A stretch of 29,338 bases of DNA from a virus, in the IMG/VR virus record IMGVR_UViG_3300042350_001482, positions 1-29,338 of that record; one strand, 5' to 3'. Both the position numbers and the translations under genes were made by a program. This document shows positions 12,808 to 26,824 of this stretch, piece by piece; position 1 is the first letter of the stretch; every line of letters begins with the position of its first letter. Under the pieces are notes generated by a model, which searched no databases, was not told the origin of the DNA, and saw nothing but the letters and a program-made list of their open reading frames with translations.

Positions 12808-14022
12808 TTACATACCTTTTTTGTAAAAACCATAAGTGCCACGGCTCGGGTTATCAAGGTTGTATATCACATTGTATCGAATAGCGTCTATGATATGATT
12901 CCAATTATCCACATATAGTTTTGAACCTTTGTTCAAATAACAATAATTGTTTAACTCTTTAGCTATGTTAGTACTATTCGGCTCAACTATTATCTTGAAA
13001 TCTTGCATTCTTACAATCCCGCTTTCAATCGTTCCTTTCTTAACCGCTTGTATGTTTATCTTTTGAAATCTTAAATCATCAATCAATCGAGGTTCTGCAC
13101 TATCTGCTATAATTAAACCGCCTTTAGTCTTTTCGAGTAACATCTTGCTTAACTCATGCGTCTTCAATCCACGTTGGTAAATGTGTTCTTTGACATATAG
13201 CAATTTGTTTTTCACATCAATTGCAACTTCAGCTAATGCGTCAGGATCAATCGAGAAACCAAAGTCCATCCCAAAAGATGTTTGAAGATAGTTCGGATTG
13301 AATGCACCGAACTCCCAATTTGTAAACACCACGCCTTCTGCCTTTTCTAGCCAACCGCCCAAAATAACATGATTGTATTTGTCAGGATTGTGTATCTTAA
13401 TTTTCTCAACTTCCTGTAAGAAAGAAACGCCCAAATTCTTGATGTTATCCTCGTAGGTAGTATGTATGTATGTCGTATTGCCTTTAGTCCCGTTAAAGCC
13501 TTCTTTGATACCTTCCTGTTCAAAAAACTTTCTATATATCCAGTGCTCTTTCGTGGCTGGGTTTAAAATTAATATAATCCTGTTTTGCTTATCGTTTGAA
13601 CGAATTGAAAGGTTAATCTTATCAAATGTCGATTCGTCTGTTAGCTCTTCAGATTCATCTAGTACCCAGGTTGTAACGCCTTGCAATGATTTCAAGTTAG
13701 CCGTTTGGTCTCCGCTCGAAGTTTTTAAGCCTTTAAAGAATATTTCGCTTTGAGATTGTTTATTCTTAATTTCACTTTTAGAGATACTAAACATATCTTC
13801 TAATTTTAATAGCTCTATTTTTTCTTTAAATTCAGGGATAATAGACAAGTGCGCACTGGTCATCGTTTGCCTTGTGAATAGTATCTTATGACCTTGCTCA
13901 AATGAAAGTAAGGTTATGAACCTACCAACCTCAAATGACTTACCACTACCACGGCCACCCGTGACTACAAAATATCTACTTTTTGAACCAAGTAAATCCC
14001 ATGCCTTACTGTGCTTCTCCAT
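12808..14022 (-). CDS. terL: Terminase large subunit
   Basis: I choose ATG at 14022 (404 residues, MEKHSKAWDLL); the longer frame starts with TTG at 14043. The ATPase has Walker A GGRGSGKS (residues 22-29), a Walker B with catalytic acid in WVLDESEE (119-126) and a coupling motif region with LNPATKEHWI. The C-terminal nuclease has FGMDFGFSIDPDALAE, LIIADSAEP and HIIDAIRY, the acidic residues of an RNase H-like fold. It belongs to the PBSX-type terminase group. It packages DNA into proheads through the portal. It overlaps terS by 17 bp. The family also makes headful packaging plausible, in line with circular permutation. Confidence 0.95.
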   Translation of the reverse strand: MEKHSKAWDLLGSKSRYFVVTGGRGSGKSFEVGRFITLLSFEQGHKILFTRQTMTSAHLSIIPEFKEKIELLKLEDMFSISKSEIKNKQSQSEIFFKGLKTSSGDQTANLKSLQGVTTWVLDESEELTDESTFDKINLSIRSNDKQNRIILILNPATKEHWIYRKFFEQEGIKEGFNGTKGNTTYIHTTYEDNIKNLGVSFLQEVEKIKIHNPDKYNHVILGGWLEKAEGVVFTNWEFGAFNPNYLQTSFGMDFGFSIDPDALAEVAIDVKNKLLYVKEHIYQRGLKTHELSKMLLEKTKGGLIIADSAEPRLIDDLRFQKINIQAVKKGTIESGIVRMQDFKIIVEPNSTNIAKELNNYCYLNKGSKLYVDNWNHIIDAIRYNVIYNLDNPSRGTYGFYKKGM

Positions 14023-15258: not shown

Positions 15259-15888
15259 TTACATTTTAATTATAATCGGTAATTTTCCATCAATAACAAC
15301 ACCGCAGGCTATCTGAGGCGGTGCATAGTTTTTAGCGTATGCCATAGCGTAAGCCTTCGCATCCACTCCGCAACCGACTTGCATTCCGAACACATTGTTA
15401 ATATATTCGATATAACATTTCGTGTGTGTATGGCCGGCAACCACGGATCTAAATTGATTCTTTGCTTTCATGAATGCCGTTGCTCCTTCTCCATGAACGT
15501 AGTAAACTCCATCAATTATTTTATCAGTAGTAAAATTCCACGTTGGCACTTCAAGTACGTCTTTAAATTCTTTTATCCACTTTGCGCTTATTCCGTTGGC
15601 TAATGCCTTGCGTGCCACTATCCTATCATGGTTTCCGATTATAACTGTTCCATTTGGGAACGCCTTGTGCCATTTGCGAAGTTTCTTAATCGAAGAATTG
15701 AGCTCATCTATTGCGCTCAAACCATCGGGATCGGTGCTATGAAATGAGCTATAATGTGAATCGATTATGTCTCCTATAAAAACTACCTTATCACATTTGA
15801 AATCTTTATATTGTTTTTTGCAATGTTCAAGATACCCATCTAAACAAAAGGGCTCATGTATGTCTCCGATTACTAAAACTTTACTCAT
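15259..15888 (-). CDS. Calcineurin-like metallophosphoesterase
   Basis: A 209-residue protein with the full set of metallophosphoesterase motifs: GDIHEP (D9, H11), GD at 39-40, GNHD (85-88), a His in VHGEG (H132) and GHTHT (152-156). The two-metal site hydrolyses phosphoesters; the substrate could be RNA or DNA ends, a cyclic nucleotide or a phosphoprotein. The first 42 residues are duplicated upstream at 15929-16054, followed there by a piece of the regulator's C terminus. It shares 8 bases with the chimeric mini-ORF (ATGAGTAA). It belongs to the segment between the late regulator and terminase. Confidence 0.9.
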   Translation of the reverse strand: MSKVLVIGDIHEPFCLDGYLEHCKKQYKDFKCDKVVFIGDIIDSHYSSFHSTDPDGLSAIDELNSSIKKLRKWHKAFPNGTVIIGNHDRIVARKALANGISAKWIKEFKDVLEVPTWNFTTDKIIDGVYYVHGEGATAFMKAKNQFRSVVAGHTHTKCYIEYINNVFGMQVGCGVDAKAYAMAYAKNYAPPQIACGVVIDGKLPIIIKM

Positions 15889-15925
15889 GTTTCTTTAAAA
15901 TTTTGCGTACTTTTTTTATTGTAAT
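15763..15925 (-). repeat. Tandem segmental duplication, copy B
   Basis: This 163-bp copy holds a regulator-tail-like stretch (ITIKKVRKILKK) and the first 42 codons of the metallophosphatase. It aligns to 15929-16092 with one single-base indel and scattered, mostly synonymous changes. Only 3 bp separate the two copies. Confidence 0.85.
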
Positions 15926-16054
15926 ATTAATTATATCACCGATAAACACTACATTATCACATTTGAAATCCTTATATTGTTTTTTACAATGTTCTAAATA
16001 CCCATCTAAACAAAAGGGCTCATGTATATCTTTAATTACTAATACTCTGCTCAT
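15881..16054 (-). CDS. Chimeric mini-ORF from tandem duplication
   Basis: A 57-residue frame, begun by an ATG overlapping the regulator stop (ATGA). Residues 1-42 (MSRVLVIKDIHEPFC...) copy the N terminus of the downstream metallophosphatase with differences at residues 3, 8 and 34; residues 43-57 (NITIKKVRKILKKHE) copy the regulator's C terminus. Of the differences in the shared 42 codons, about twelve are synonymous and three change the residue. G8 of the GDIHEP motif is K, and the rest of the metal site is absent, so no enzyme activity is expected. It could be translated as a linker in a coupled operon; whether the peptide does anything is unknown. Confidence 0.5.
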   Translation of the reverse strand: MSRVLVIKDIHEPFCLDGYLEHCKKQYKDFKCDNVVFIGDIINITIKKVRKILKKHE

Positions 16055-16092
16055 AGTTTGCGTAATATTTTGCGTACTTTTTTAATGGTAAT
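15929..16092 (-). repeat. Tandem segmental duplication, copy A
   Basis: This 164-bp copy includes the true C terminus of the sigma-like regulator (ITIKKVRKILRKL and stop) and a truncated metallophosphatase start. It is the upstream partner of 15763-15925; the unit shift is 166-167 bp. The direct neighbours of the copies are unrelated, so the duplicated unit is defined by these borders. Confidence 0.85.
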
Positions 16093-16509
16093 GTCAACAC
16101 TTGACCTGGGTATTCCTGTTTCACGAGATAGGCTTGATATCGTATGTTGTTTATCTGAAAATATCTTGAATAGTTCTTTATCATACCAAGCCAGGTCTTC
16201 TAATGCTTTGATATATTCGAGCTCGTTATGGTCGTATTCTTTATAGTCAATAATGTCATCAGTTATTTCATTTGACTTTTGATTAAAAAACATTTTATAG
16301 AATGGGCCTGTATTAGACCGCCATTGAGTAAGCATAATTCTGACTACATAAAACCTTACCCCACCACTATTAATAATTTCTTCATAGTTTTTCTTACTAT
16401 ATAGCTCCTCTAAAGCATAGTGTAACAAGTCCATATGTAATTCATGGTTGTTAGTAATCTTCTTACTAGCTTCAATTAAGATAGGATATTCTTGAACTAT
16501 ATCAGTCAA
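16051..16509 (-). CDS. Sigma/RinA-like transcription regulator, probable late gene activator
   Basis: A 152-residue protein. The N-terminal two thirds are helical with HMDLLHYALEELYSKK (25-40) and FYVVRIMLTQWRSN (53-66), as in small phage sigma-like or RinA/ArpU-type regulators. Residues about 120-150 form a helix-turn-helix resembling sigma region 4 (ISSLSRETGIPRSSVDITIKK). It lies between early and late genes and directly before the late block, the place for an activator of the late operon. A possible -7 box (TAACTTTG at 16536-16529) precedes it without a clear -33 element. Its last codons are copied in the tandem duplication. The regulator call is good; the late role is inferred. Confidence 0.7.
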   Translation of the reverse strand: MTDIVQEYPILIEASKKITNNHELHMDLLHYALEELYSKKNYEEIINSGGVRFYVVRIMLTQWRSNTGPFYKMFFNQKSNEITDDIIDYKEYDHNELEYIKALEDLAWYDKELFKIFSDKQHTISSLSRETGIPRSSVDITIKKVRKILRKL

Positions 16510-16544
16510 TTATGATTCATTTGGAAAACAAAGTTAGTATATTA

Positions 16545-16751
16545 TTAATTGATTAAAATTATATTATGTTCATTCTTTAACTCAAATAACTTTTCTTTAA
16601 CATCTTCGATGTCAACTAGTCCATCTGTATTTTTCCATTGTCTAAAAAAATTATGGAATAAATCGAATAAAAAAGCATCTCTGTTTTGCGCTTGAAAGTA
16701 TGGCATCAGCTCGTTTTGGTCTTCACCTGTAATCTTAAATTCTATTTGCAT
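16545..16751 (-). CDS. Small hypothetical protein
   Basis: A 68-residue, acidic, mainly helical protein with FLFDLFHNFFRQWKN in the middle and no motif that I recognise. It lies 35 bp upstream of the regulator and 56 bp downstream of the nuclease, so it is probably on the same transcript. It has no Cys, no membrane segment and no signal peptide. Confidence 0.5.
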   Translation of the reverse strand: MQIEFKITGEDQNELMPYFQAQNRDAFLFDLFHNFFRQWKNTDGLVDIEDVKEKLFELKNEHNIILIN

Positions 16752-16807
16752 AATGTGTTATATAATTTACTTGTTAATGATTATGATGTGTAGTATAAGT
16801 CACGTTA

Positions 16808-17308
16808 TTAAAATGTGCTATCATACCATTCAATAAAGTCATCAATATTCCTAGCAATGACATAAATACCCCCCGCTTCATTGATTGAATGTTCATATTT
16901 CTTTTGATCCTCGCTTTGTCTGTCTTTGCCATATTTAACCTCTATTTTCACACTTACTCCTACTTTCATGTTATTGACTACCATTGGGATGGTTGCGCTT
17001 ATATCAGCGCTTCCTTTCGTTCCTGTACCTTTTTGCCAACTAACCGAACCAACTACCCTTGTAAAGCCTAAAACGTCCTTAACTGTCTTTGTATTGTCAA
17101 TTCTGCGCCCCATTGTGTTTATCCTTTCAGCTTGACCGCCATTAAATGTAATCCAGTCAATAATGCATCGAGTTAAGCCATTAGCTCCATTATCAGTTTT
17201 GGTATAATGACTGAATGATTTGATGTCATCTTCTGTCCACGTTGGGTATTTTCTAATCAGATGTTCACGCTTTGCTTGTAGGAATCTTTTTTTGGTTTCT
17301 CTATTCAT
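16808..17308 (-). CDS. VRR-NUC-like PD-(D/E)XK nuclease
   Basis: A 166-residue protein. The motifs GSADI (99-103), EVK (123-125) in VSVKIEVKYG and a conserved-looking Gln in QSEDQ (131-135) are the active-site layout of VRR-NUC/Holliday-junction-resolvase-like nucleases, where the Asp and the E-x-K hold the metal. The N-terminal part is basic (KKRFLQAKREHLIRKY). It follows the primase-helicase by 2 bp, so it is likely in replication or in cleaving branched DNA before packaging. The exact substrate is unknown. Confidence 0.8.
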   Translation of the reverse strand: MNRETKKRFLQAKREHLIRKYPTWTEDDIKSFSHYTKTDNGANGLTRCIIDWITFNGGQAERINTMGRRIDNTKTVKDVLGFTRVVGSVSWQKGTGTKGSADISATIPMVVNNMKVGVSVKIEVKYGKDRQSEDQKKYEHSINEAGGIYVIARNIDDFIEWYDSTF

Positions 17309-17310
17309 GT

Positions 17311-19704
17311 TTAAAATGTTAATCCGTCTTCAATAGGTAAATTATTAATCTCGTTTTTAGGCTTGTTGATTTTGTCAATTATCTCAAAATATACGCCCAT
17401 ATTATCTTTGCTGTGAATAATGTTAAGTCCTTTAAATGTTACATACGTATCAATCCATTGTTTGAACTTCTTTCTAGTAAGCCACTTTCTGAAATCTTGA
17501 TAATCTGTTAAGAACTCCTCAAATATAACTTGATTATAAATTCTCGTATTCGTTTTAAAATGTTCCCCTTCAATAGAAAATTCGTAGAATTCGCTTGATG
17601 TCTTGTTAATAAATTTACGTACTTCAAGATTCTTAAACTCATGCTGAACCAATCCGTTCGCTAAATAATACTGCACACAATCAATCATGAAGTTATCAAA
17701 TTTAGTCCATTCAATGTCCGACCATTCATCAAATAATAAATGATTGAATACTTGTAAAGGTGTATTATTAGCATTAAAAAAACTACTAAACTCAACTTCA
17801 AATTTTCTGCGCTCGAATGATCCACCAACGCCACCAACTGTGTAATTCGTTGTAATTAATATTTTCGGGCTTTTCTTTACTGGGAGCTTGATTGCTAGTT
17901 GACCTTTGCGCTCTAAAGTAATACCTTCTGTTATAAGACTAAATAAACTCTCAAAGTCAAAGTTCTTTTTAACGTCATCAAATACCAATATTTGACAATC
18001 TGCTGAAATAGTTTGATACTTAAACTGGTCTCCAAAACTAAAGGACTTACCATCTAAACTATTTAATTTTTTCATTTGGCTTAATGCATTCCAAAATAAG
18101 CCCTTACCACTCCCCCCATTTGGAGTATCTGAAATAGTCTCATCATTTAAAATTATAGCTTTGTTATTTGCGCTTGTTTTGAATGAATGAAGTAAATACC
18201 CAATAACTGAACGTAGTGAGTTATATCGTTGTGTCTCCTCATTTGCTATGTAAAATAAAAATTTAGAAAATACGCAATTATCCACTTTTATGTAGGTAAA
18301 TTCTCTATCTATTATTTGATTTTTCCATACGTACCCTTCACTATCAATATAATCAATTTGCTTAACTTCATTTTTTGAAATAGATATTATCTTGTTTTTA
18401 AAGTATAGATAACAATTATCAATGTCATCTTCTAAAAGTTTGACTTCTTTAGTCTCTAAAAATGATAAGAAATCGAATGAGAAATATTTAGTCTTTTCAG
18501 CCATGTAGTTAAACGGCTTCATTCCTATATCTTCTTTGAACTCTAAATAGTTAAGGGTATAATCCTTTATCATATCCTTATTTGTCTCCTCTAATAAGTT
18601 TTCAAATATCTTAATGAAGATAAATCCATTCGTTCCACTAGGGTAAAATTTAAAGAAATTACGTTCCTGTAAGAAGTACTTAAACTTATGCTGTAAAATT
18701 TGAATATTGCCTTTGCTAGAATATTCCCAAAAGTCAGTTATACTAATATTTTCCTTTACATTCTCGATGGCATTCTCAATTTCATTTTCCTGCAAGTCTG
18801 GGAATTGTTTTTTTATTCCTTTGATGTCTTTGCCACTTCTTATTTGCTTTTCAATTTTATCCTTTGTAAAAGTATCTTCAAAAAATTTAGTTCCAAAACT
18901 ACCAGTTCGTTGGTATGCGCTTTTAATTATAGTCTGAATTTCACGTAAAGGAAAGTCATCTCTTACATATTCCATGCATACATTCTCACATACGTTTTTT
19001 GGAACTCCAAAGTCATTGAAAGCAATGGCTAACTTGAATAGGTTATTATTCCTTTCTCCTTTACCCATTGGGAATTTAGTAAACCATTTTCGTAAATTAT
19101 CTACTATTCTATTTTCTGACCTTATCGGTATGTTTACGTTTATCGTTTCAACTTCGTATATGTCAGGCTCATTTTTTTCCATCCATGTCAAACTATCTTC
19201 GTTTATGTGAATTTCAGGATCGTAACTCTCAAAACAAATTCTGCTAATATTTGAACATGAAATGTCGAAGTATTTTGAATTATACTTATCCTTTAGGCTC
19301 TCAAAGTATAGTTTATGATTTTCTATTTCATTTGGTATTTTAACCAGGCATTTTAGACCATTACCACTTGGCGAAGTAAACACACTAAACGTATATGCAT
19401 CTTCTATTAATTGCGCTCTAAATTCGTTTAATAGCTCATTATTCTCAAACTTATCAAAGTCAAGACAAATTAAACCGCTGTGTTCGATAATAGAGGCGTC
19501 ATTTCGCTGTCTAAACGTTCCGCTGAATAGAATGGCTGGTAATTTCTTTTTAAGCAAATTTTGAGCTTCTACGCTCGAATTTCGTATTTGTTCAACTAAT
19601 TGTTTTGAACTTCCTTTTTTTATCCTATCGAGAATAAAAAATATATCTCTGTTATATCCAGCGGAAACGTCTCCGAATGATTTGTATATTGTTATTTGTG
19701 GCAT
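17311..19704 (-). CDS. VirE_N-type primase fused to SF3-like helicase
   Basis: I choose ATG at 19704 (797 residues, MPQITIYKSFGD). Upstream candidates are ATG at 19719 and GTG at 19728. Residues 1-165 resemble the VirE N-terminal (BT4734-like) primase-like domain, with LICLDFD (78-84) and SPSGNGLKCLV (111-121). The C-terminal part is a P-loop helicase: NGGSGKG (529-535), an acidic Walker B in ILVFDDV (572-578) and ILITTNY (615-621), then FERRKFEVEF. This order (primase then helicase) is the usual replicative enzyme of small phages; it would open the origin and prime synthesis by the host polymerase. No DNA polymerase is present. Its leader carries a candidate promoter and complementary segments that cover both ATGs. 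Confidence 0.85.
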   Translation of the reverse strand: MPQITIYKSFGDVSAGYNRDIFFILDRIKKGSSKQLVEQIRNSSVEAQNLLKKKLPAILFSGTFRQRNDASIIEHSGLICLDFDKFENNELLNEFRAQLIEDAYTFSVFTSPSGNGLKCLVKIPNEIENHKLYFESLKDKYNSKYFDISCSNISRICFESYDPEIHINEDSLTWMEKNEPDIYEVETINVNIPIRSENRIVDNLRKWFTKFPMGKGERNNNLFKLAIAFNDFGVPKNVCENVCMEYVRDDFPLREIQTIIKSAYQRTGSFGTKFFEDTFTKDKIEKQIRSGKDIKGIKKQFPDLQENEIENAIENVKENISITDFWEYSSKGNIQILQHKFKYFLQERNFFKFYPSGTNGFIFIKIFENLLEETNKDMIKDYTLNYLEFKEDIGMKPFNYMAEKTKYFSFDFLSFLETKEVKLLEDDIDNCYLYFKNKIISISKNEVKQIDYIDSEGYVWKNQIIDREFTYIKVDNCVFSKFLFYIANEETQRYNSLRSVIGYLLHSFKTSANNKAIILNDETISDTPNGGSGKGLFWNALSQMKKLNSLDGKSFSFGDQFKYQTISADCQILVFDDVKKNFDFESLFSLITEGITLERKGQLAIKLPVKKSPKILITTNYTVGGVGGSFERRKFEVEFSSFFNANNTPLQVFNHLLFDEWSDIEWTKFDNFMIDCVQYYLANGLVQHEFKNLEVRKFINKTSSEFYEFSIEGEHFKTNTRIYNQVIFEEFLTDYQDFRKWLTRKKFKQWIDTYVTFKGLNIIHSKDNMGVYFEIIDKINKPKNEINNLPIEDGLTF

Positions 19705-19715
19705 TGTAAAAAAAA

Positions 19716-19820
19716 CCATTGTAAGCACTGCTTGTGGAAGTTATGAAAAGTATTTCTACTAATCAATTTTAAGCAATACCTACAATGGCATTTAAAAATT
19801 TATAAATATCGGCTTCCACA
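19716..19820 (-). promoter_or_regulatory. Interleaved complementary segments in the primase leader
   Basis: In the minus-strand RNA, TGTGGAAG (19820-19813), CCATTGTA (19788-19781), CTTCCACA (19740-19733) and TACAATGG (19723-19716) occur in the order b-a-b'-a', as in a pseudoknot. TACAATG occurs again at 19708-19702. Both possible start codons (19719 and 19704) lie in TACAATG, so pairing could hide them. Confidence 0.4.
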
Positions 19821-19845
19821 CCTATTTTTAATTAAAGAATTGAAT

Positions 19846-19879
19846 ACAAAAATATATATTATTTTTTAACTTAAACAAA
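19846..19879 (-). promoter_or_regulatory. Candidate Bacteroidetes-type promoter for the primase operon
   Basis: A -7 box TATTTTTG (19853-19846) follows a TTTG -33 element (19879-19876) after 22 bp, slightly longer than the usual 19. It is the best match to TTTG-N-TAnnTTTG in the non-coding region and would give a leader of about 130 nt before the primase start. Confidence 0.4.
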
Positions 19880-20110
19880 ACTAAATTTAATAAACATATA
19901 TTTATATTCTACATGTGTTTTATTTATATATGAAGGAAACCATTATAAACATTGACTTTTTTTCTTTTCATGCAGGATTGCATGATTGATTTGCCATTTT
20001 GAAAAAAAAATTTTTTCTTGTTTAAACTACTCCTATAAGAGAGACTTCGCATACTTTTTTATACATGTGGAATATAAATATATATAAATCATTGATTTTC
20101 AATATTTTTA

Positions 20111-20455
20111 TTAAAACGGCAAGTCATCAGATCCAGCCTGTAAAACTCTGACATCTTCAACTTTTCCACCTTGATACTTTACTTCGCTAGTCGGGATTGG
20201 CTGGTCTTTAGTTCCTACATTTATTTTGCCATCCGTCCAAAATACCTTGCCATTTCCGAAATAATACTTGTTAACTTTTGCATCTCGTTGTTCTTTCGTT
20301 TGTTCTGCAAAGAAGGATACATTTTGACCATATTGGTTTGACTGGTCTGAAATAGAGGCTGTAAATTTAAAGCCTGTTTCATTTTTGCTTTCGCATACTT
20401 TTACTATCTCTTTCATTTTTTCTAGGGTAATGTAACCGCTAATCATTGTACTCAT
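20111..20455 (-). CDS. SSB-like protein with DDLPF tail
   Basis: A 114-residue protein beginning MSTMISGYITLEKMKEIV. The middle part is beta-rich and basic (FKFTASISDQSNQ, KVNKYYFGNGKVFWTD), and the C terminus is GSDDLPF, the acidic tip by which single-stranded DNA-binding proteins recruit partners (host SSB ends DDDIPF). It is shorter than typical SSB (about 160). The start overlaps the IbrA stop by ATGA. Placement before the primase-helicase fits a replication role. The OB fold is inferred, not seen. Confidence 0.6.
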   Translation of the reverse strand: MSTMISGYITLEKMKEIVKVCESKNETGFKFTASISDQSNQYGQNVSFFAEQTKEQRDAKVNKYYFGNGKVFWTDGKINVGTKDQPIPTSEVKYQGGKVEDVRVLQAGSDDLPF

Positions 20456-21669
20456 ATATTTGTTTTTAATTGTTTAATTGATTTTAATTTTTTTATTTCT
20501 TTAAATTTACCATAAGCATCAGAAAATGGTTGAGTTTGTCCTAAACTTTTACACCAATAATCATTTCTTAACATAACTTTACACATTCTTCTCCAAGAAG
20601 GAACCCAGCATTTTGATTCTAAATCTTCAGGAGCTTCATCAGGAATAATTAAATATCCTCTATCTTGCCAACCTTTTATAAATTTAACAAATCTTTCCCT
20701 ATAATGCATTCTAGTTTTTTGTGGCATAGTTGATAAAAGTAAATTACAAAATGATTGCCAAGTATGTCCTTCAGGTTTTGTAATTTTATTATAACCAGAT
20801 ATATTACCGTTTTCTTGAATATATAAAGCTCCACTATTAACTCCATTTACTCTAACAATTAATTTATACCATGTATCAGGTTCTAAAATATGATATAACC
20901 ATAAACCTTTTCTTTGATCATCACCATATGGTTGACACAATCTTTGTTGACTAATTTTAACCCCTGCCATCATCATTTTATCATAAATTTTATTATGTAT
21001 TAAATTTTTATATTTTCCATGAAATACCCATATGTCTTCTGTTCTCCAATCATAAATTGGGTATATATTAAATAAATTTTTTGAAACTTTTGTAGACCAT
21101 TTCCAATTATTGAACATTAAACCATCTTTTCTAGATGTTATTGCTCTATAACGATGTAATGATTCATCAGAACGTATTCCTATAAAAGCACAAGTATTTT
21201 TACCTTCCGAAAACCATTCTCCAAAAAGAACCATAAATTCTTCAAATTCCATTTTAGGTTGATAAAAATCATATTGTGTTAAATTACTTGCCAATAATGG
21301 TTTTTCTCTAACCCATATATTTTTTTTATTTTCATCCCAACAAATCCATCTTGGTTCATAATTACTTACTGCATTTCTTAATAAAAGTTCTGCACAAATC
21401 CAATGTAATTCAATATACTCATTATACATTTCAATCATTTTTTCAATATGATGAATAGTATCATTATATTGTGCTTCTAAATCAATTATTAATAATCCTA
21501 CTTTTCTATTTCTTTTTTTAGCTTCTGCTAAAACTAGATGAGTCATTACACTACTATCTTTACCTCCTGAAAATGAAATATAAATTTTTTCAAAATTATC
21601 AAAAGTTAAAGAAATACGCTCTTTACTTGCCTCTAAAACTGTTTTATTATTGTATACTTTTGTTGCCAT
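20452..21669 (-). CDS. ibrA: PAPS-reductase-like protein, IbrA family (DUF3440)
   Basis: A 405-residue protein. The N-terminal part has the ATP-pyrophosphatase loop SGGKDS (34-39), then LLIIDLEAQYNDTI, as in PAPS reductase family enzymes. A later segment IGIRSDESLHRYRA and the C-terminal SWRRMCKVMLRNDYWC and DAYGKFKEIKK fit the DUF3440/IbrA family. It forms a pair with the ParB-like gene upstream, as in IbrA/IbrB. Related enzymes take part in sulfur transfer (including DndC in DNA phosphorothioation); the reaction of IbrA is not established to my knowledge. The gene appears more AT-rich than neighbours. The SSB-like gene overlaps its stop. Confidence 0.85.
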   Translation of the reverse strand: MATKVYNNKTVLEASKERISLTFDNFEKIYISFSGGKDSSVMTHLVLAEAKKRNRKVGLLIIDLEAQYNDTIHHIEKMIEMYNEYIELHWICAELLLRNAVSNYEPRWICWDENKKNIWVREKPLLASNLTQYDFYQPKMEFEEFMVLFGEWFSEGKNTCAFIGIRSDESLHRYRAITSRKDGLMFNNWKWSTKVSKNLFNIYPIYDWRTEDIWVFHGKYKNLIHNKIYDKMMMAGVKISQQRLCQPYGDDQRKGLWLYHILEPDTWYKLIVRVNGVNSGALYIQENGNISGYNKITKPEGHTWQSFCNLLLSTMPQKTRMHYRERFVKFIKGWQDRGYLIIPDEAPEDLESKCWVPSWRRMCKVMLRNDYWCKSLGQTQPFSDAYGKFKEIKKLKSIKQLKTNI

Positions 21670-21670
21670 T

Positions 21671-22810
21671 TTAATATATATTTACTTGTCTACCAATTGA
21701 TAATGCTTCATCCATATCTACTTCATTTCTATTATATTTTTTCATCCAAATATTTAAAAATTCCAAGGCAATTTCATTTGCTTTGTTTTGTTGTTCATTA
21801 TTTAATAAATTCCATCCTGAACAAAATTTAGATGGTATTCCTTTCAAATAACAAACTGAAGCTTGTCCTAACCATGCTATTCTATTCATAGCTTTATTTG
21901 TTAAATAATGTTCGCATGAATTAATCCAATTATCTAAAACTCCATGTAATGCAAGTCTAAATAATTTTTCATTTGATAATATTTTATAATATTGTATTTC
22001 ACATTCATGTGAAGTCATACCATCTTTTTTAGATGAATAAAACCCAGCTTTATGACATTCCCATTTTTCAAAAGTATGAAATATTCTTTCAGGATCATTT
22101 GTATTACTTGTTCTATATTTTTCAGTTTGTTCATTACTTAATTCATCTGTTAATATTTCATAATCAGCAATTGAATCTGAAGATTCCCATGATTTACTAA
22201 AATCATCATCTTTAAAAATATCTTGTAATCCTGTTATTTGACAAAGTCTTAATATTTCTTCTTCATCCATACCAAGTTCTCTTGCTATTCTTTCATTTTT
22301 CCAATTTCTATTTTTTAATTCTAAAATAATTTCACTCATTGCATCAACTTGATGTTTTCCTCTTGCTCTATTATGTCTTATTGTAGATGCAATCCTATCA
22401 TTTTTATTGCTTTGTTCACTTCTAATAATTACAGTAGGAGTATATCCTAAAACTCTTTCTCTAACTACACTTGATTCTTTACTTACTCTAGTTCTGTGAA
22501 AACCATCGACTACTTCAATTTTATCACCATTAGGATATGTTACAACTGGTTGAGTATATCCATCATTCATTATGGATATTTCTAATAAAGCCATTTCAGG
22601 AGGAGCTACTTTATTTGGGTTATAATCATTAGCTTGTACATTTTCACATTTTACCCATTTTACAAAATCTACTGGTTCTTTTTTAAATGGTGAATTATTG
22701 TGTATAGATTCTCTTAAACTATTTATTGTTTCAATTTTTTCATCTATTTGCATATTTACTAATATATGCTCAATTTCTTTTTTAATTTTTTCTAATTTCT
22801 CGTTTGTCAT
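21671..22810 (-). CDS. ibrB: ParB/Srx-fold protein, IbrB family
   Basis: A 379-residue protein. Residues about 45-165 form a ParB-like nuclease/Srx domain: YNPN (63-66), DGFHRTR (102-108), the ParB active-site style loop, and HNRARG (146-151). Residues about 165-195 look like a helix-turn-helix (ERIARELGMDEEEILRL). The C-terminal half (about 200-379) is helical with several Cys and Trp and is not a domain I can name; it makes the protein longer than usual IbrB. It ends two bases before the IbrA start, so the pair is one unit. ParB-fold domains can bind NTP or act on phosphate; the joint role with IbrA is unknown. Confidence 0.8.
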   Translation of the reverse strand: MTNEKLEKIKKEIEHILVNMQIDEKIETINSLRESIHNNSPFKKEPVDFVKWVKCENVQANDYNPNKVAPPEMALLEISIMNDGYTQPVVTYPNGDKIEVVDGFHRTRVSKESSVVRERVLGYTPTVIIRSEQSNKNDRIASTIRHNRARGKHQVDAMSEIILELKNRNWKNERIARELGMDEEEILRLCQITGLQDIFKDDDFSKSWESSDSIADYEILTDELSNEQTEKYRTSNTNDPERIFHTFEKWECHKAGFYSSKKDGMTSHECEIQYYKILSNEKLFRLALHGVLDNWINSCEHYLTNKAMNRIAWLGQASVCYLKGIPSKFCSGWNLLNNEQQNKANEIALEFLNIWMKKYNRNEVDMDEALSIGRQVNIY

Positions 22811-22829
22811 AATATTTGTTTTTAATTGT

Positions 22830-22973
22830 TTACTTTTTAATTAATTTAATTGTTTTTTTATCGATTCTGATTGCTTTCATTTTAGCGACATCAATTTCTT
22901 TTGTATCAAATGTTTTTCCTTTGTCGCTTTTTGTTTTACCTAGGTATTCAAACCCTTTTAAATTTTTATTCAT
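22830..22973 (-). CDS. Small basic protein upstream of ibrB
   Basis: A 47-residue frame, MNKNLKGFEYLGKTKSDKGK at the start and TIKLIKK at the end, with an ATG at 22973 overlapping the upstream stop by 8 bases (ATGAATAA). It is Lys-rich, with no Cys and no membrane segment. Good coupling, codon content like the neighbours and filling of an otherwise empty gap support translation. No function is suggested; it could bind nucleic acid. Confidence 0.5.
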   Translation of the reverse strand: MNKNLKGFEYLGKTKSDKGKTFDTKEIDVAKMKAIRIDKKTIKLIKK

Positions 22974-23325
22974 TGTTTCTATTTATTTTTAATGTGTTGT
23001 TTAAAATTTCAGTTAAGATTTCATCTGCTAAATTACGTTGCTGGTCCGACATTTGACCAATTGTGAACATGATATTATCAAATGCACCTGTATCGTAATT
23101 GTTCGTAGTCCTTTCATGTATCTCTTTTCGCATTTCGTAATTGGTAATGCTGGCAATTATCTTGTGGATTCTGTTAGCTGATTGCATTGCATCTGTGAAA
23201 TCTTTTTTAAGATTCTTTGTTAACTGCATATCCAAGATGACATTTTCACACAAACGACTTATTTGCGTTGCGTATGTTAATATTAGAGTGATGTCGGTAT
23301 TGCTTTTTAAATATTTAGCATCCAT
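22966..23325 (-). CDS. Hypothetical helical early protein
   Basis: A 119-residue protein, almost wholly helical (ILTYATQISRLCENVILDMQ, later RNLADEILTEILNN), with one Cys, no membrane segment and no motif. It starts one base after the stop of the HTH protein and ends overlapping the 47-residue frame. It belongs to the early block with recombination genes. I do not recognise it. Confidence 0.6.
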   Translation of the reverse strand: MDAKYLKSNTDITLILTYATQISRLCENVILDMQLTKNLKKDFTDAMQSANRIHKIIASITNYEMRKEIHERTTNNYDTGAFDNIMFTIGQMSDQQRNLADEILTEILNNTLKINRNNE

Positions 23326-23326
23326 A

Positions 23327-23842
23327 TTAGTACATAATTTTAGTATATTTATCTAAATCAAAATAGCCATTGCCGTTGTCGAAATCGTAGCCGTAAAAGT
23401 TAACTTTGCTTTTCTCATTATATAGCTTCATCTCAATCATTCGTGAACGTAGGATGTTTTTAGTTACTCCAACTAATTTTGCGAGCTTATCAATGCTAAT
23501 CTTATCATAATTTGCTTTGACTATCTTTTTTTGTTCATCATTCAATTCTACTTTTCTATTCATTCTTTTTTCTTTATTGTTCTTAAATCTTACACATGCA
23601 ACTAATCTTTGACAGCATTTTAATTCGTTAGCAATTTCAATATTTCGTTTGTGTAGCATTGATGCAATCTTCTTACAAAGTTCGCCAGTTTCGTGCTTAA
23701 TTCCAAGCGATTTTCTACGTTTGCTTATCGCACTCACACTCACTCCGTAAAGCCTCGATATGTGCTCTAATTTCATTTGAGGGTTTTCTTTTATATAATC
23801 ATTTAATTTCTGCATTTGATAATTCTTTTTGTTTGTCTTCAA
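23327..23842 (-). CDS. DNA-binding protein with two HTH motifs
   Basis: A 171-residue, strongly basic protein. One helix-turn-helix lies near residues 22-48 (LEHISRLYGVSVSAISKRRK) and a second near residues 115-137 (ISIDKLAKLVGVTKNILRSR). A middle segment RRKSLGIKHETGELCKK and a Tyr/Gly-rich C terminus follow. ATG at 23842 or 23815 are both possible; the latter trims the overlap with the upstream gene to 17 bp. It may regulate the early promoters or bind phage DNA. It is the most obvious phage regulator besides the sigma-like protein. Confidence 0.65.
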   Translation of the reverse strand: MKTNKKNYQMQKLNDYIKENPQMKLEHISRLYGVSVSAISKRRKSLGIKHETGELCKKIASMLHKRNIEIANELKCCQRLVACVRFKNNKEKRMNRKVELNDEQKKIVKANYDKISIDKLAKLVGVTKNILRSRMIEMKLYNEKSKVNFYGYDFDNGNGYFDLDKYTKIMY

Positions 23843-24167
23843 ATACTTTCATCTTATTTTTAACCATAATAACTAGATTTCTAAATTCAAGTTCCAAGTC
23901 ATAATGAGCTTTTGCCTTTTCAAAATGGTACATGATAGTTGTATGGTCTTTTGGGATTAAACTAATAATCTCTCCGATGTGTTGATGTGTATAACCTTTT
24001 TGTTTCAAGATAAAACTGGTTGCTTTCCTTGCGTCTACAAATCTTTTTTTTCTTTTTTGACCTATTAAGTCATCAATCTGAATGTTTGCATATTGGCAAA
24101 TTGTGCTGAATAAAGTATTTTCATATTCATTCAATCTTGTGATGTGTTTTTCTATTTCGTTTTTCAT
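23799..24167 (-). CDS. Stand-alone DnaA domain IV-like protein
   Basis: A 122-residue protein. Residues about 40-90 (KRFVDARKATSFILKQKGYT, then IGEIISLIPKDHTTIMYHFE) match the helix pattern of DnaA domain IV, including the DHTT motif at 74-77 (DHST in DnaA). A full DnaA has more than 400 residues; the ATPase and domain I are missing here. The domain would recognise DnaA boxes in the host or phage origin. Flanking helices may be dimerisation parts. It lies after the exonuclease gene by 2 bp and overlaps the HTH gene. Confidence 0.75.
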   Translation of the reverse strand: MKNEIEKHITRLNEYENTLFSTICQYANIQIDDLIGQKRKKRFVDARKATSFILKQKGYTHQHIGEIISLIPKDHTTIMYHFEKAKAHYDLELEFRNLVIMVKNKMKVFEDKQKELSNAEIK

Positions 24168-24169
24168 AA

Positions 24170-24862
24170 TTATAATTTTAATGTGTTGTAATATTCACGA
24201 GCTTTCTCGATTTTAGTTTTTAGAGTTTCAATGAATGCAGGATCGTAATCAAATGCAAATACCTTAACTCTTTTTTCAATAGGTAAATCCTTAATTAAAT
24301 CGTTATTACGTTGGATTTGTTGCGTTTGTGCGATGTAGTCTTCATTATCGTAATTTTTGCCATACTTCCATGCTAGTTTCTCGCATTCATTCAAAACCAT
24401 GTGCTGTGGTGTTGGCACTAAAGCATAGATTAAACGATACTTTTCTTTGCCTGTTAGCCACATATAACATTGGGCCTGTGCGTAGTACATCTTGCTTAAT
24501 TCAGCATTAAAAAATGTCTTAAGATTCCACGAAGTCTTAATGTCTTCAACACAATCAGTTAACACGATGTCGGGAGTTCCTATAACATAATCGTTTTGTA
24601 GCTTTGTATTGTATCGTGAACGGAAGCCACCTGGCACAACTTGACTAACTAAATCCATGCTATCCTGTTCACATTCGTTTCCTTTATCCATGTAGTCATT
24701 TTTGAGTAGTTCGGCAAAACCGAACTCATCGAATAGCCACTTATCTTCAACGAAAGTCTTTGCGGTTTCTGAAAGATTGCCAGCTTCTTTGTCGGCTTTT
24801 AATTTAGGCTCATTCATTAATGAACCTACACCACTGCATCTAAATAATATTTTATTTTCCAT
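24170..24862 (-). CDS. PD-(D/E)XK exonuclease, recombination type
   Basis: A 230-residue protein with the core of YqaJ/lambda-exonuclease-like nucleases: an early Glu pair in NECEQD (62-67), GTPDIV (95-100), DIKTSW (107-112, D-x-K form of the usual E-x-K) and YYAQAQCYMWL (126-136). Such enzymes resect one strand of double-stranded ends to feed the annealing protein. It shares 11 bp with the Rad52-like gene upstream, which forms the classical exonuclease-annealase pair. Confidence 0.8.
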   Translation of the reverse strand: MENKILFRCSGVGSLMNEPKLKADKEAGNLSETAKTFVEDKWLFDEFGFAELLKNDYMDKGNECEQDSMDLVSQVVPGGFRSRYNTKLQNDYVIGTPDIVLTDCVEDIKTSWNLKTFFNAELSKMYYAQAQCYMWLTGKEKYRLIYALVPTPQHMVLNECEKLAWKYGKNYDNEDYIAQTQQIQRNNDLIKDLPIEKRVKVFAFDYDPAFIETLKTKIEKAREYYNTLKL

Positions 24863-25541
24863 TTATTAAAGTGTGCATTTTATCGTTATAAATAATTTCT
24901 AATTCGTATTTGTTTACCAATGATTCAACTTGCATCAAAGTTTCTACGTTATTCGCATTTAGGATGTGCTTTTCAACACGTTCTTTCTCTTTGCTATTGT
25001 GTATACCTTCAGCGCTTAATAGCTCCGTATCGCCTGTAAATTGCACAATATCTTTGCGGTTCAAGTTAGCTCCAAATAAATCCCCAAAGTGGTCGCATGC
25101 ATCCTTGATGGCAATTGATTTCGCAATTGGTAAAGCCATCATAACTGCTCCTTTATTTACGTTACTCATGTCCATATTGAGATTGCCACTTCCTTTTGTA
25201 GTTTGCAATTCCTGTGCTCCTACGCCATCGTGATACATCATCTCATTTGTTGCTGGGTTAAGGTAATGAACTCTAACTGTTACCTCAATTGCATTGAATA
25301 ATTGGGCCGTCTTAATAACCTCGATTTGATATTTCTTAAAGCATCTGCGAAGTAAGTATTCTACTTTGTCAATCGGTAGGTAATTGTAACCTTTAATGAA
25401 TGGATGTTGTTTTACCCAGGTTGCTGGCGGTGGTGTTGACAAGATAACATTTAGTTGCTCTAATGGTACTACGTCTAAATCTAATTGTTTGAATAGGCTT
25501 GTTATAGTTGCCTTTGTTTGTTTTGCTAGTTCTTTATTCAT
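24852..25541 (-). CDS. Rad52-like single-strand annealing protein
   Basis: A 229-residue protein. The part at 55-70 (LPIDKVEYLLRRCFKKYQIE), the ACDHFGDLFGANLN stretch (148-161) and a Gly-rich HDGVGAQELQTTKGSG region match Rad52-family annealases of phages (Sak-like). The protein would form rings on single strands and promote annealing together with the exonuclease downstream. The start is ATG at 25541, and a G-rich hairpin lies 19 bp upstream of it. Rad52 superfamily is the best fit; an Erf- or RecT-type annealase is the alternative. Confidence 0.75.
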   Translation of the reverse strand: MNKELAKQTKATITSLFKQLDLDVVPLEQLNVILSTPPPATWVKQHPFIKGYNYLPIDKVEYLLRRCFKKYQIEVIKTAQLFNAIEVTVRVHYLNPATNEMMYHDGVGAQELQTTKGSGNLNMDMSNVNKGAVMMALPIAKSIAIKDACDHFGDLFGANLNRKDIVQFTGDTELLSAEGIHNSKEKERVEKHILNANNVETLMQVESLVNKYELEIIYNDKMHTLINGK

Positions 25542-25583: not shown

Positions 25584-25994
25584 TTAATAGTCTTCGTCTT
25601 CAAATTGTGATAAATACTCTTCTCTTTCTGCTCTATCTTGATCCTGGTATTCAACTAAATCTTCACGCTCCTTATCCATTAAATCAATGTGATGTATTGT
25701 TTCTAATGTATCTTGGATTCTTTCAACGGTATCGTCAAGTTGTTTTTTTACTCTTAATAAAGCGGTGTTAAACTCACTCTCTTCAATAAATTCAAATCCA
25801 TCTTGGAACGCTGAATATACATCAAATCCAGTATCAATTATGCCATTAATAGTATTGTAATCTAATACCTTGAAAATAGTATTTTCGTCAATAACTGCGT
25901 AATACTTTTTTTCAAAAACGCCTGCAACCTTTGTGAATGTTGGGAAGGCAATGCTAACTTCTTGTGTTGTTTTTTGTGTTGTTGTAATTTTCAT
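25584..25994 (-). CDS. Hypothetical acidic early protein
   Basis: A 136-residue protein. The first residues MKITTTQKTTQE resemble the N terminus of the gene under the other copy of the promoter (26490-26702). The body is unrelated: a beta-rich part with KYYAVIDENTIFKVLDYNTI, then a helical, strongly charged part with VKKQLDDTVERIQDTLET and an acidic end FEDEDY. A coiled coil is likely at about 80-125. I do not recognise a function. It has its own promoter at 26024-26054. Confidence 0.6.
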   Translation of the reverse strand: MKITTTQKTTQEVSIAFPTFTKVAGVFEKKYYAVIDENTIFKVLDYNTINGIIDTGFDVYSAFQDGFEFIEESEFNTALLRVKKQLDDTVERIQDTLETIHHIDLMDKEREDLVEYQDQDRAEREEYLSQFEDEDY

Positions 25995-26023
25995 AATTTT
26001 TATTTTTAATGTTTAATAGAATG

Positions 26024-26054
26024 CAAAGATAGTTCTTTATTTCGTACTACCAAA
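26024..26054 (-). promoter_or_regulatory. Early promoter, copy 2 (TTTG-N19-TAnnTTTG)
   Basis: The -33 element TTTG (26054-26051), a 19-bp spacer and -7 box TATCTTTG (26031-26024) match the Bacteroidetes consensus exactly. The 25-bp block 26038-26062 is identical to 26745-26769. The leader before the start at 25994 is short and A-rich. Confidence 0.85.
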
Positions 26055-26055
26055 T
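26041..26055 (-). promoter_or_regulatory. Dyad over the -33 box, copy 2 (operator candidate)
   Basis: TTTCGTACTACCAAA reads as its own reverse complement at 12 of 15 positions (pattern TTTsGTAsTACsAAA), overlapping the TTTG element. Same element at 26748-26762. A dimeric regulator could bind here and control both promoters. Confidence 0.6.
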
Positions 26056-26067
26056 TTATTTTAAGAA

Positions 26068-26274
26068 TTATATAAATAATAATTCGTTGAGAGTTTCGCT
26101 AATGTCTTGACGTTGTTTATCAGTTAGCTTTTGAGGATTGATCCTGTGTTTGTTTTGAATCAATTTATTTACGATGTCAAGTAGCTTGTGATTATTACTT
26201 CTATACGTCTTTAAGGTGTTGTTTTTAGGGTTTATATATATACTTTTTCTACCTAGTTTTTTATTTTTTTCCAT
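26068..26274 (-). CDS. Small hypothetical basic protein
   Basis: A 68-residue basic protein (MEKNKKLGRKSIYINPKNNT start), with helical KLLDIVNKLIQNKH and LTDKQRQDISETLNELLF later. Its N-terminal half could bind nucleic acid and the last helix pair could mediate dimerisation. It lies 7 bp after the gene upstream, in the first early transcript, just before promoter copy 2. I do not recognise it. Confidence 0.5.
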   Translation of the reverse strand: MEKNKKLGRKSIYINPKNNTLKTYRSNNHKLLDIVNKLIQNKHRINPQKLTDKQRQDISETLNELLFI

Positions 26275-26489: not shown

Positions 26490-26702
26490 TTAATTTAATT
26501 TTAAGTAGTTTTTTAATCTAAAAATATCAGTTTTTAAGAAGGCAATCTTATCCCAATTCTTAACTGGCTGTTGCATCTCAATTTCAAGTCTCTCTAATTG
26601 ACATGCTAAATGTACTTTCTTAACTTCATTCATTGTAACCATGTCATAATGGTGTTGAGTTAATGTGTTTTGCTCGCTTGTTTTTTGTGTTAGTGTAATC
26701 AT
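26490..26702 (-). CDS. First early gene product, small hypothetical protein
   Basis: I choose the ATG at 26702 (70 residues, MITLTQKTSEQN start). The longer frame to 26744 would begin within the promoter's -33/-7 region and is rejected. The rest is helical (NEVKKVHLACQLERLEIEMQ, then LKTDIFRLKNYLKLN). The leader and first ten codons resemble those of the 25584-25994 gene, as if the promoter and start had been duplicated as a cassette. As the first early gene it may counter host functions; no family is recognised. Confidence 0.6.
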   Translation of the reverse strand: MITLTQKTSEQNTLTQHHYDMVTMNEVKKVHLACQLERLEIEMQQPVKNWDKIAFLKTDIFRLKNYLKLN

Positions 26703-26730
26703 AATTTTATTTTTATTTGTTTTATGAATG

Positions 26731-26761
26731 CAAATATACACCACTATTTCGTACTACCAAA
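26731..26761 (-). promoter_or_regulatory. Early promoter, copy 1 (TTTG-N19-TAnnTTTG)
   Basis: TTTG (26761-26758), a 19-bp spacer and TATATTTG (26738-26731), an exact consensus match. It begins just below the late terminator and drives the early block. The leader TAAAAATAAAATT before the ATG is A-rich, typical of Bacteroidetes translation starts. Confidence 0.85.
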
Positions 26762-26762
26762 T
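26748..26762 (-). promoter_or_regulatory. Dyad over the -33 box, copy 1 (operator candidate)
   Basis: The same 15-bp imperfect palindrome (TTTCGTACTACCAAA) as at 26041-26055, at the same position relative to the -33 element. Confidence 0.6.
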
Positions 26763-26824
26763 TTATTTTCAAATTATTTTTGTTAATTCGCTGAAAGGCG
26801 CATGAATAAAGGCTATAAATTTTT

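Follow-up and report, generated by a model that had tools for sequence, protein, structure and literature searches.

A candidate replication origin and a putative kissing-loop leader RNA between the SSB-like and primase-helicase genes of a phage

Gene Content of the Locus

The window analyzed here (29,338 nucleotides; positions 1–29,338 of IMG/VR record IMGVR_UViG_3300042350_001482) is a phage record in which the main genes all lie on the minus strand. With the genes all on one strand, GC skew drops almost throughout and is uninformative as to an origin. The terminase is nearest to those of Nonlabens phages P12024S/L (64.6%); Phage_integrase has no match in the window, and deposited phages yielded no DNA similar to window positions 16000–25000. 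The window ends carry a 127-bp direct terminal repeat, indicative of a closed or circularly permuted genome.

The preliminary description of this DNA had singled out a non-coding stretch at 19705–20110 (minus strand), and this stretch is real: at 406 bp (21.9% G+C) it is the largest gap in the window, the next longest between minus-strand genes being 192 and 155 bp. It is preceded, in the direction of transcription, by an SSB-like gene (20111–20455, minus strand) that encodes an acidic LPF tail. The LPF end is invariant (9/9); the gene matches neither Pfam nor PHROG entries, and no SSB-like relatives were confirmed in genome_contigs. The gap is followed by the gene for a type A primase-helicase of 797 aa (17311–19704, minus strand) with BT4734-like_N and PriCT_1 domains. 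A structure model of this protein built from 48 sequences (mean pLDDT 72; residues 508–659 low) has a confident winged-helix-like end, predicted as a C-terminal winged-helix domain at residues 721–777 (17374–17544, minus strand); a first model from five sequences was discarded (pLDDT 38). The best Foldseek matches of the model were AsfvPrimPol, MPOX E5, and the SaPI5 primase-helicase (E 2.5e-6), with low whole-chain TM-scores (0.2–0.4), and neither sequence nor profile searches against solved structures returned anything meaningful. The C-terminus that holds the predicted winged helix is a variable part of the protein.

The window also encodes a DnaA domain IV-like protein (23799–24167, minus strand), as previously proposed: it matches Bac_DnaA_C (E 1.6e-10). 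Among relatives this gene falls into two allele groups (~97–100% and 50–60% identical to that of the window), which swap independently of primase type. Other observations concern the surrounding genes. A PAPS-reductase/DUF3440 gene adjoins a ParB-like gene that has no Pfam match (20452–22810), a pair that we take to be IbrA/IbrB-like; among the relatives checked, both genes occur at the same place only in L025. A short ORF (15881–16054) repeats the start of the adjoining metallophosphatase gene (15259–15888) almost exactly and ends like the gene at 16051, pointing to a partial duplication. Two stretches of ~120 bp (25967–26093 and 26678–26797) are 79% identical, and in both a small gene is preceded by a promoter-like TTGGTAGTACGAAATA...TAnnTTTG site.

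Upstream Half of the Gap: Candidate Origin

The gap consists of two elements, rather than one: a candidate origin (Element 1, about 19850–20110), specific to the type A primase-helicase, and a promoter plus leader RNA that together span 19708–19878. Relatives were collected via the primase (9 loci) and via the SSB-like protein (33 loci; 62 with alignment). In close relatives the gene order is exonuclease, DnaA-like gene, two small genes, SSB-like gene, a cassette, and a resolvase-like gene, and the cassette takes two main forms. Type A cassettes comprise Element 1, the leader, and the type A primase, in that order; type B cassettes comprise a leader, a Prim-Pol/DUF3987 protein of ~764 aa, and then about 250–300 bp of non-coding DNA. 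All close type A contigs (8/8) contain Element 1; the type B gaps between SSB-like gene and primase lack it and start directly at promoter-proximal sequence. Its core 16-mer was found in nine viral_contigs, namely seven known type A contigs (the window apart) and two contextless matches that are unrelated and were taken as chance.

Within Element 1, the most prominent feature is a 21-nt inverted repeat, with a proximal arm at 19896–19916 and a distal arm at 20063–20083, each a candidate initiator site. None of 200 shuffles reached 21 nt, the largest repeat being 17 nt. The arms are nearly invariant in an alignment of the eight type A contigs, and because they are invariant covariation says nothing about them as sites. 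In the window, Element 1 has these two inverted arms and no 8-mer in three copies.

Next to the distal arm lies TTGANNATCAANNNNTTA (20085–20102, minus strand), a candidate IHF-type site that fits the Escherichia coli IHF consensus, given as WATCAAnnnnTTR in PMC10380432. It has a single match in the window (0.01 expected), inside Element 1. AT-rich DNA (the 21.9% G+C of the gap) occurs together with this unique putative IHF-type site, which was recognized by sequence match. The sequence is present in seven of the eight type A contigs, with a single mismatch in the remaining one (L038). Across loci L014–L046 there are 32 matches, 29 of them in non-coding DNA that adjoins the primase gene; the others are at the primase gene end (one, L043) or elsewhere (two, L043 and L044). 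It also occurs in the gap after the primase gene of P12024S (L186).

The motifs on which an origin had previously been proposed are all present but differ in conservation. The dyads TCATGCA/TGCATGA (19968–19985) and AAATCA/TGATTT both exist, but the TCATGCA arm is found in only one of the eight type A contigs, that of the window, and what is conserved at this position is the ATCCTGCAT core. The A9T6 run (20002–20016) is likewise present, but type A relatives keep only the long T (minus-strand) tract and not the A9 half, and we therefore rejected it as a bend-type element.

Cassette Types and Iterons in Relatives

Type B loci have iterons just after the primase gene, as repeated GTGTAAC or TTTAAACC units in the non-coding DNA. 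The C-terminal helix-turn-helix of the type B primase switches with iteron type: among 12 proteins, identity in the last 19 columns of the alignment is 0.89 within iteron groups and 0.41 between them, compared with 0.89–0.90 vs. 0.79 in columns 700–750 and no split by iteron group in the first 700 columns. Leader variant and iteron type combine freely.

For more distant type A homologues, 80 of about 600 reported loci were fetched and 78 were analyzed, the remaining two being truncated at the protein start; among the 78, L187 duplicates the contig of L008. Iterons, defined as an 8-mer with at least three G/C in at least three copies, were found upstream of the primase gene in 49 of the 73 loci with enough upstream DNA (24 had none by this test) and downstream in 5/76, although these counts are not independent, many of the loci being closely related to each other; 3/405 mono-shuffled upstream regions were positive. 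The copies are commonly near −310, −215, and −160 from the start codon and are found in both orientations. The outer iteron groups lie ~230 and 70–82 bp above the promoter element (−87 in L236), and the arms of the window lie 216–236 and 49–69 bp above the window promoter element; from this agreement in distance we infer that the window arms stand where homologues have their iteron groups.

The proposal of an origin beside the primase-helicase gene is thus well supported for the upstream half of the gap, even though the motif reading behind it was mostly wrong. The block travels with primase type, distant homologues carry iterons at the same place, and the TTGANNATCAANNNNTTA site is common to the iteron-bearing regions of phages with the other primase. 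These comparative data indicate that Element 1 is probably a replication origin. A gap devoted purely to transcriptional or RNA regulation, with replication starting elsewhere and Element 1 acting as a regulator site or another structured RNA, would account for the folding of Element 1 as RNA (better than shuffles, z −4.21), for its position in the transcribed direction, and for its having only two repeat copies. However, its stems are almost without covariation, with one of 41 pairs changed on both sides, and homologues bear DNA-type iterons there in both orientations; in addition, Element 1 has its unique site in common with the type B iteron regions and tracks primase type, not leader type. 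We therefore regard an RNA-only gap as unlikely.

Leader RNA: Anatomy

The downstream half of the gap begins with an element at 19847–19878 (minus strand; TTG, 21 nt, TATTTTTG), which we take to be a promoter of the Bacteroidota type; the leaders of relatives are preceded by TAnnTTTG elements. The predicted transcript is a leader RNA of ~130 nt (19708–19840, minus strand; start placed from the promoter) that folds better than any of 200 shuffles (z −4.48). It ends in a predicted terminator hairpin (19716–19788, minus strand) followed by a run of eight U residues (19708–19715), immediately ahead of the start codon at 19704. Near the 5′ end, the loop L, TGTGGAAG (19813–19820, minus strand), is complementary to L′, CTTCCACA (19733–19740, minus strand), which is located inside the terminator loop. 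The 5′ hairpin of the window is weak, and RNAfold favors another pairing there.

Sequence features thus provide a promoter, a structured leader, and an intrinsic terminator ahead of the start codon, as expected of an attenuator. No Rfam match reached the gathering score in the window or in 12 relative loci, and a survey of open-licence papers, preprints excluded, found nothing describing such a leader; it looks like an undescribed attenuator family.

Upstream of the primase in L220 and L233–L251 the leader is of another type, marked by a conserved GGTTGTCGGAGGCATCC-like segment and a U-run; GGGG may pair with CCCC, and a repeat further on is complementary to the middle of the leader. This type had no Rfam match in the three loci tested. 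Small cysteine-rich, zinc-finger-like ORFs lie between the SSB-like gene, leader, and primase gene in L018, L019, L033, L074, L076, and L077, and come and go among relatives.

Loop Pairing and Hypervariability of the Leader

The layout of the leader recurs in relatives with different L sequences: CTGGTAC, ATGGTAC, CTAGTCC, CTTGTCC, GTCGCAT, GTGAGAA, GTGAGAG, GTTGCGG, GTTGCAG, GTGCGAG, and TTAAGGG. Type A homologues add further loop pairs (GTGGTAG, CTGGAAG, CTCTCTGA, CTCACTAC, ATGCAAG, ATGGAAG, and others). Covariation is visible in single steps, as between ATGGTAC/GTACCAT and CTGGTAC/GTACCAG, or between ATGCAAG/CTTGCAT and ATGGAAG/CTTCCAT. In several relatives (e.g., L014, L031, and L078) RNAfold, unaided, places L and L′ in 7-nt apical loops; in leader variant 3, L′ lies outside any apical loop.

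Loop complementarity was assessed with a split test in which L was not preselected, the requirement being a 7-mer with at least three G/C in the first 50 nt and its complement in the remainder. Leaders were complementary to themselves in 13/13 cases, compared with 11/156 cross pairs (two of the 11 being L021/L032, which share a loop) and 2.8% of shuffled sequences; the 13 comprise a selected representative of each variant among 23 distinct leaders, one variant being represented a second time by L032. An earlier form of the test was dropped (22/23 distinct leaders vs. 41% of shuffles), being non-discriminating because AT-rich matches and terminator arms were counted. The MAFFT alignment of leaders misaligns the loops, and no pair counts were drawn from it.

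With a promoter-plus-U-run search, a complementary pair was present in 56/80 such windows upstream of type A primases (some of these pairs being terminator arms) and in 20/211 elsewhere in type A loci; 22 of the 78 type A loci have no kissing leader by this test. A scan for hairpin-enclosed pairs was positive in 31/33 SSB-linked loci and 47/78 type A loci, again with some terminator arms included, and missed L034 and L037, for which the variant 2 leader was found otherwise. No leader was evident by eye in MW202828, a homologue with 44% identity. Searches elsewhere with a variant 3 16-mer (55 stretches) and a variant 2 15-mer (23) gave, among the matches listed outside known loci, only unrelated sequence with no leader, and these were therefore dismissed as chance.

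The leader is hypervariable, with 0.43 identity between neighbors that are ~0.90 identical. When 13 type B loci are compared pairwise, those that differ in leader variant (n = 54 pairs) have identities of 0.897 for the SSB gene, 0.430 for the leader interval (which for variant 2 includes a small ORF), and 0.916 for the primase start; the corresponding values for pairs with the same variant (n = 24) are 0.905, 0.975, and 0.922.

The loop data bear on the reading of the whole gap as a DnaA-dependent origin, in which TTCCACA sites would be bound by DnaA of the host or by the DnaA domain IV-like protein of the phage. The motif is present as described previously and exceeds chance: its three copies in the window are all in the gap (19733 and 20066, both as TGTGGAA, and 19814), against 0.052 expected, with 0/1000 shuffles reaching three, and a genuine Bac_DnaA_C protein is encoded. 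But we rejected DnaA boxes as the meaning of these copies. Two copies are the L and L′ loops themselves, which change together and are not conserved as TTCCACA (L016 and L019 have GTGAGAA/TTCTCAC in their place), and the third is in an inverted-repeat arm whose partner arm reads TTCTACA. Further, TTATCCACA is absent from the gap, its sole copy in the window being in a coding region at 12905, and the DnaA-like gene lies beside both primase types and so cannot explain a primase-specific block. Taken together, these data make a DnaA-dependent origin highly improbable.

Proposed Function of the Gap

Our favored reading, which we consider fairly likely, is that the gap is a compact replication-control region combining an origin with a promoter and attenuator leader for the primase-helicase. 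Element 1 would be the origin used by the adjoining primase-helicase, the C-terminal winged helix of which would bind the two 21-nt inverted-repeat arms; an IHF/HU-type protein may bend the DNA at 20085–20102, and the AT-rich DNA between the arms would open. The leader transcribed from the primase promoter would end in the intrinsic terminator that touches the start codon, with L in the 5′ hairpin loop pairing with L′ inside the terminator hairpin. If this kissing interaction holds the terminator fold, most transcripts would stop early, and synthesis of the initiator would stay low until read-through or relief.

The most likely role of the leader is thus to attenuate primase-helicase synthesis, the kissing interaction helping to maintain the terminator fold, although kissing may act in either direction, a ligand or protein partner may take part, and the leader may also act in trans. 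It is doubtful that the leader is instead a free small RNA gene that acts on other targets, with read-through into the primase gene incidental. Such a gene would fit a leader with its own promoter and terminator that is exchanged independently of the next gene, but the U-run ends a few nucleotides before the start codon in nearly every listed case, a placement for which a free small RNA has no need and which therefore counts against it. Also, the leader fronts several small genes as well as primases of at least two unrelated families.

For the many uncultured phages related to Flavobacteriaceae phages, the arrangement that we favor provides a candidate origin with predicted binding sites and a predicted binding domain, and the relatives supply a natural series of matched initiator-domain/iteron pairs. 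In the leader, RNA architecture is kept while sequence is replaced, ahead of unrelated replication primases, and sequence-based RNA searches would overlook it. A more speculative and rather improbable extension is that the hypervariable kissing-loop leader constitutes an RNA self/non-self code for phage replication. If so, terminated leader RNAs of one phage would bind any nascent leader carrying an identical loop pair and silence its initiator, and a co-infecting phage would escape only with a different loop pair. Such a code would explain the wholesale replacement of leaders between near-identical phages, and the shuffling of leader, primase, and iterons as modules, like plasmid incompatibility determinants; the leader may be a phage counterpart of a plasmid copy-number or incompatibility RNA.

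Comparison With Known Systems

The kind of origin proposed here is already known, and it is the order origin, promoter, leader, initiator that is unusual. The Rep helicases of SaPIs recognize, through a C-terminal domain, iterons beside their own gene, as described in PMC7581432. The window is similar in its initiator helicase with a predicted C-terminal DNA-recognition domain, and relatives of the window, like SaPIs (PMC7581432), have short iterons beside the initiator gene. The arrangement differs from that of SaPIs in that the type A origin precedes the gene, with the promoter and leader RNA in between, and in that the window has two inverted arms in place of an iteron array. Iteron plasmid origins with IHF sites, as described in PMC10380432, likewise combine repeats, an AT-rich stretch, and an IHF-type site, although the repeats here are few and the IHF site in Bacteroidota phages is putative.

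For the leader, one parallel is the satellite phage P4, in which, according to PMC4825925, transcription of the replication genes is terminated prematurely through the action of an RNA. The P4 CI RNA and the proposed leader have in common that termination ahead of such genes depends on RNA complementarity, but the processed P4 RNA pairs with two sites in trans (PMC4825925), whereas in the window both partners are in one short leader. The window also differs from P4 in that no integrase was found in it. A second parallel is ColE1 RNA I/RNA II, which have fully complementary 7-nt hairpin loops with sequences that vary between relatives. The leader resembles this pair in its complementary 7-nt loops and in their variability between relatives, but, unlike in ColE1, a single RNA carries both loops, and one of them forms part of the terminator.
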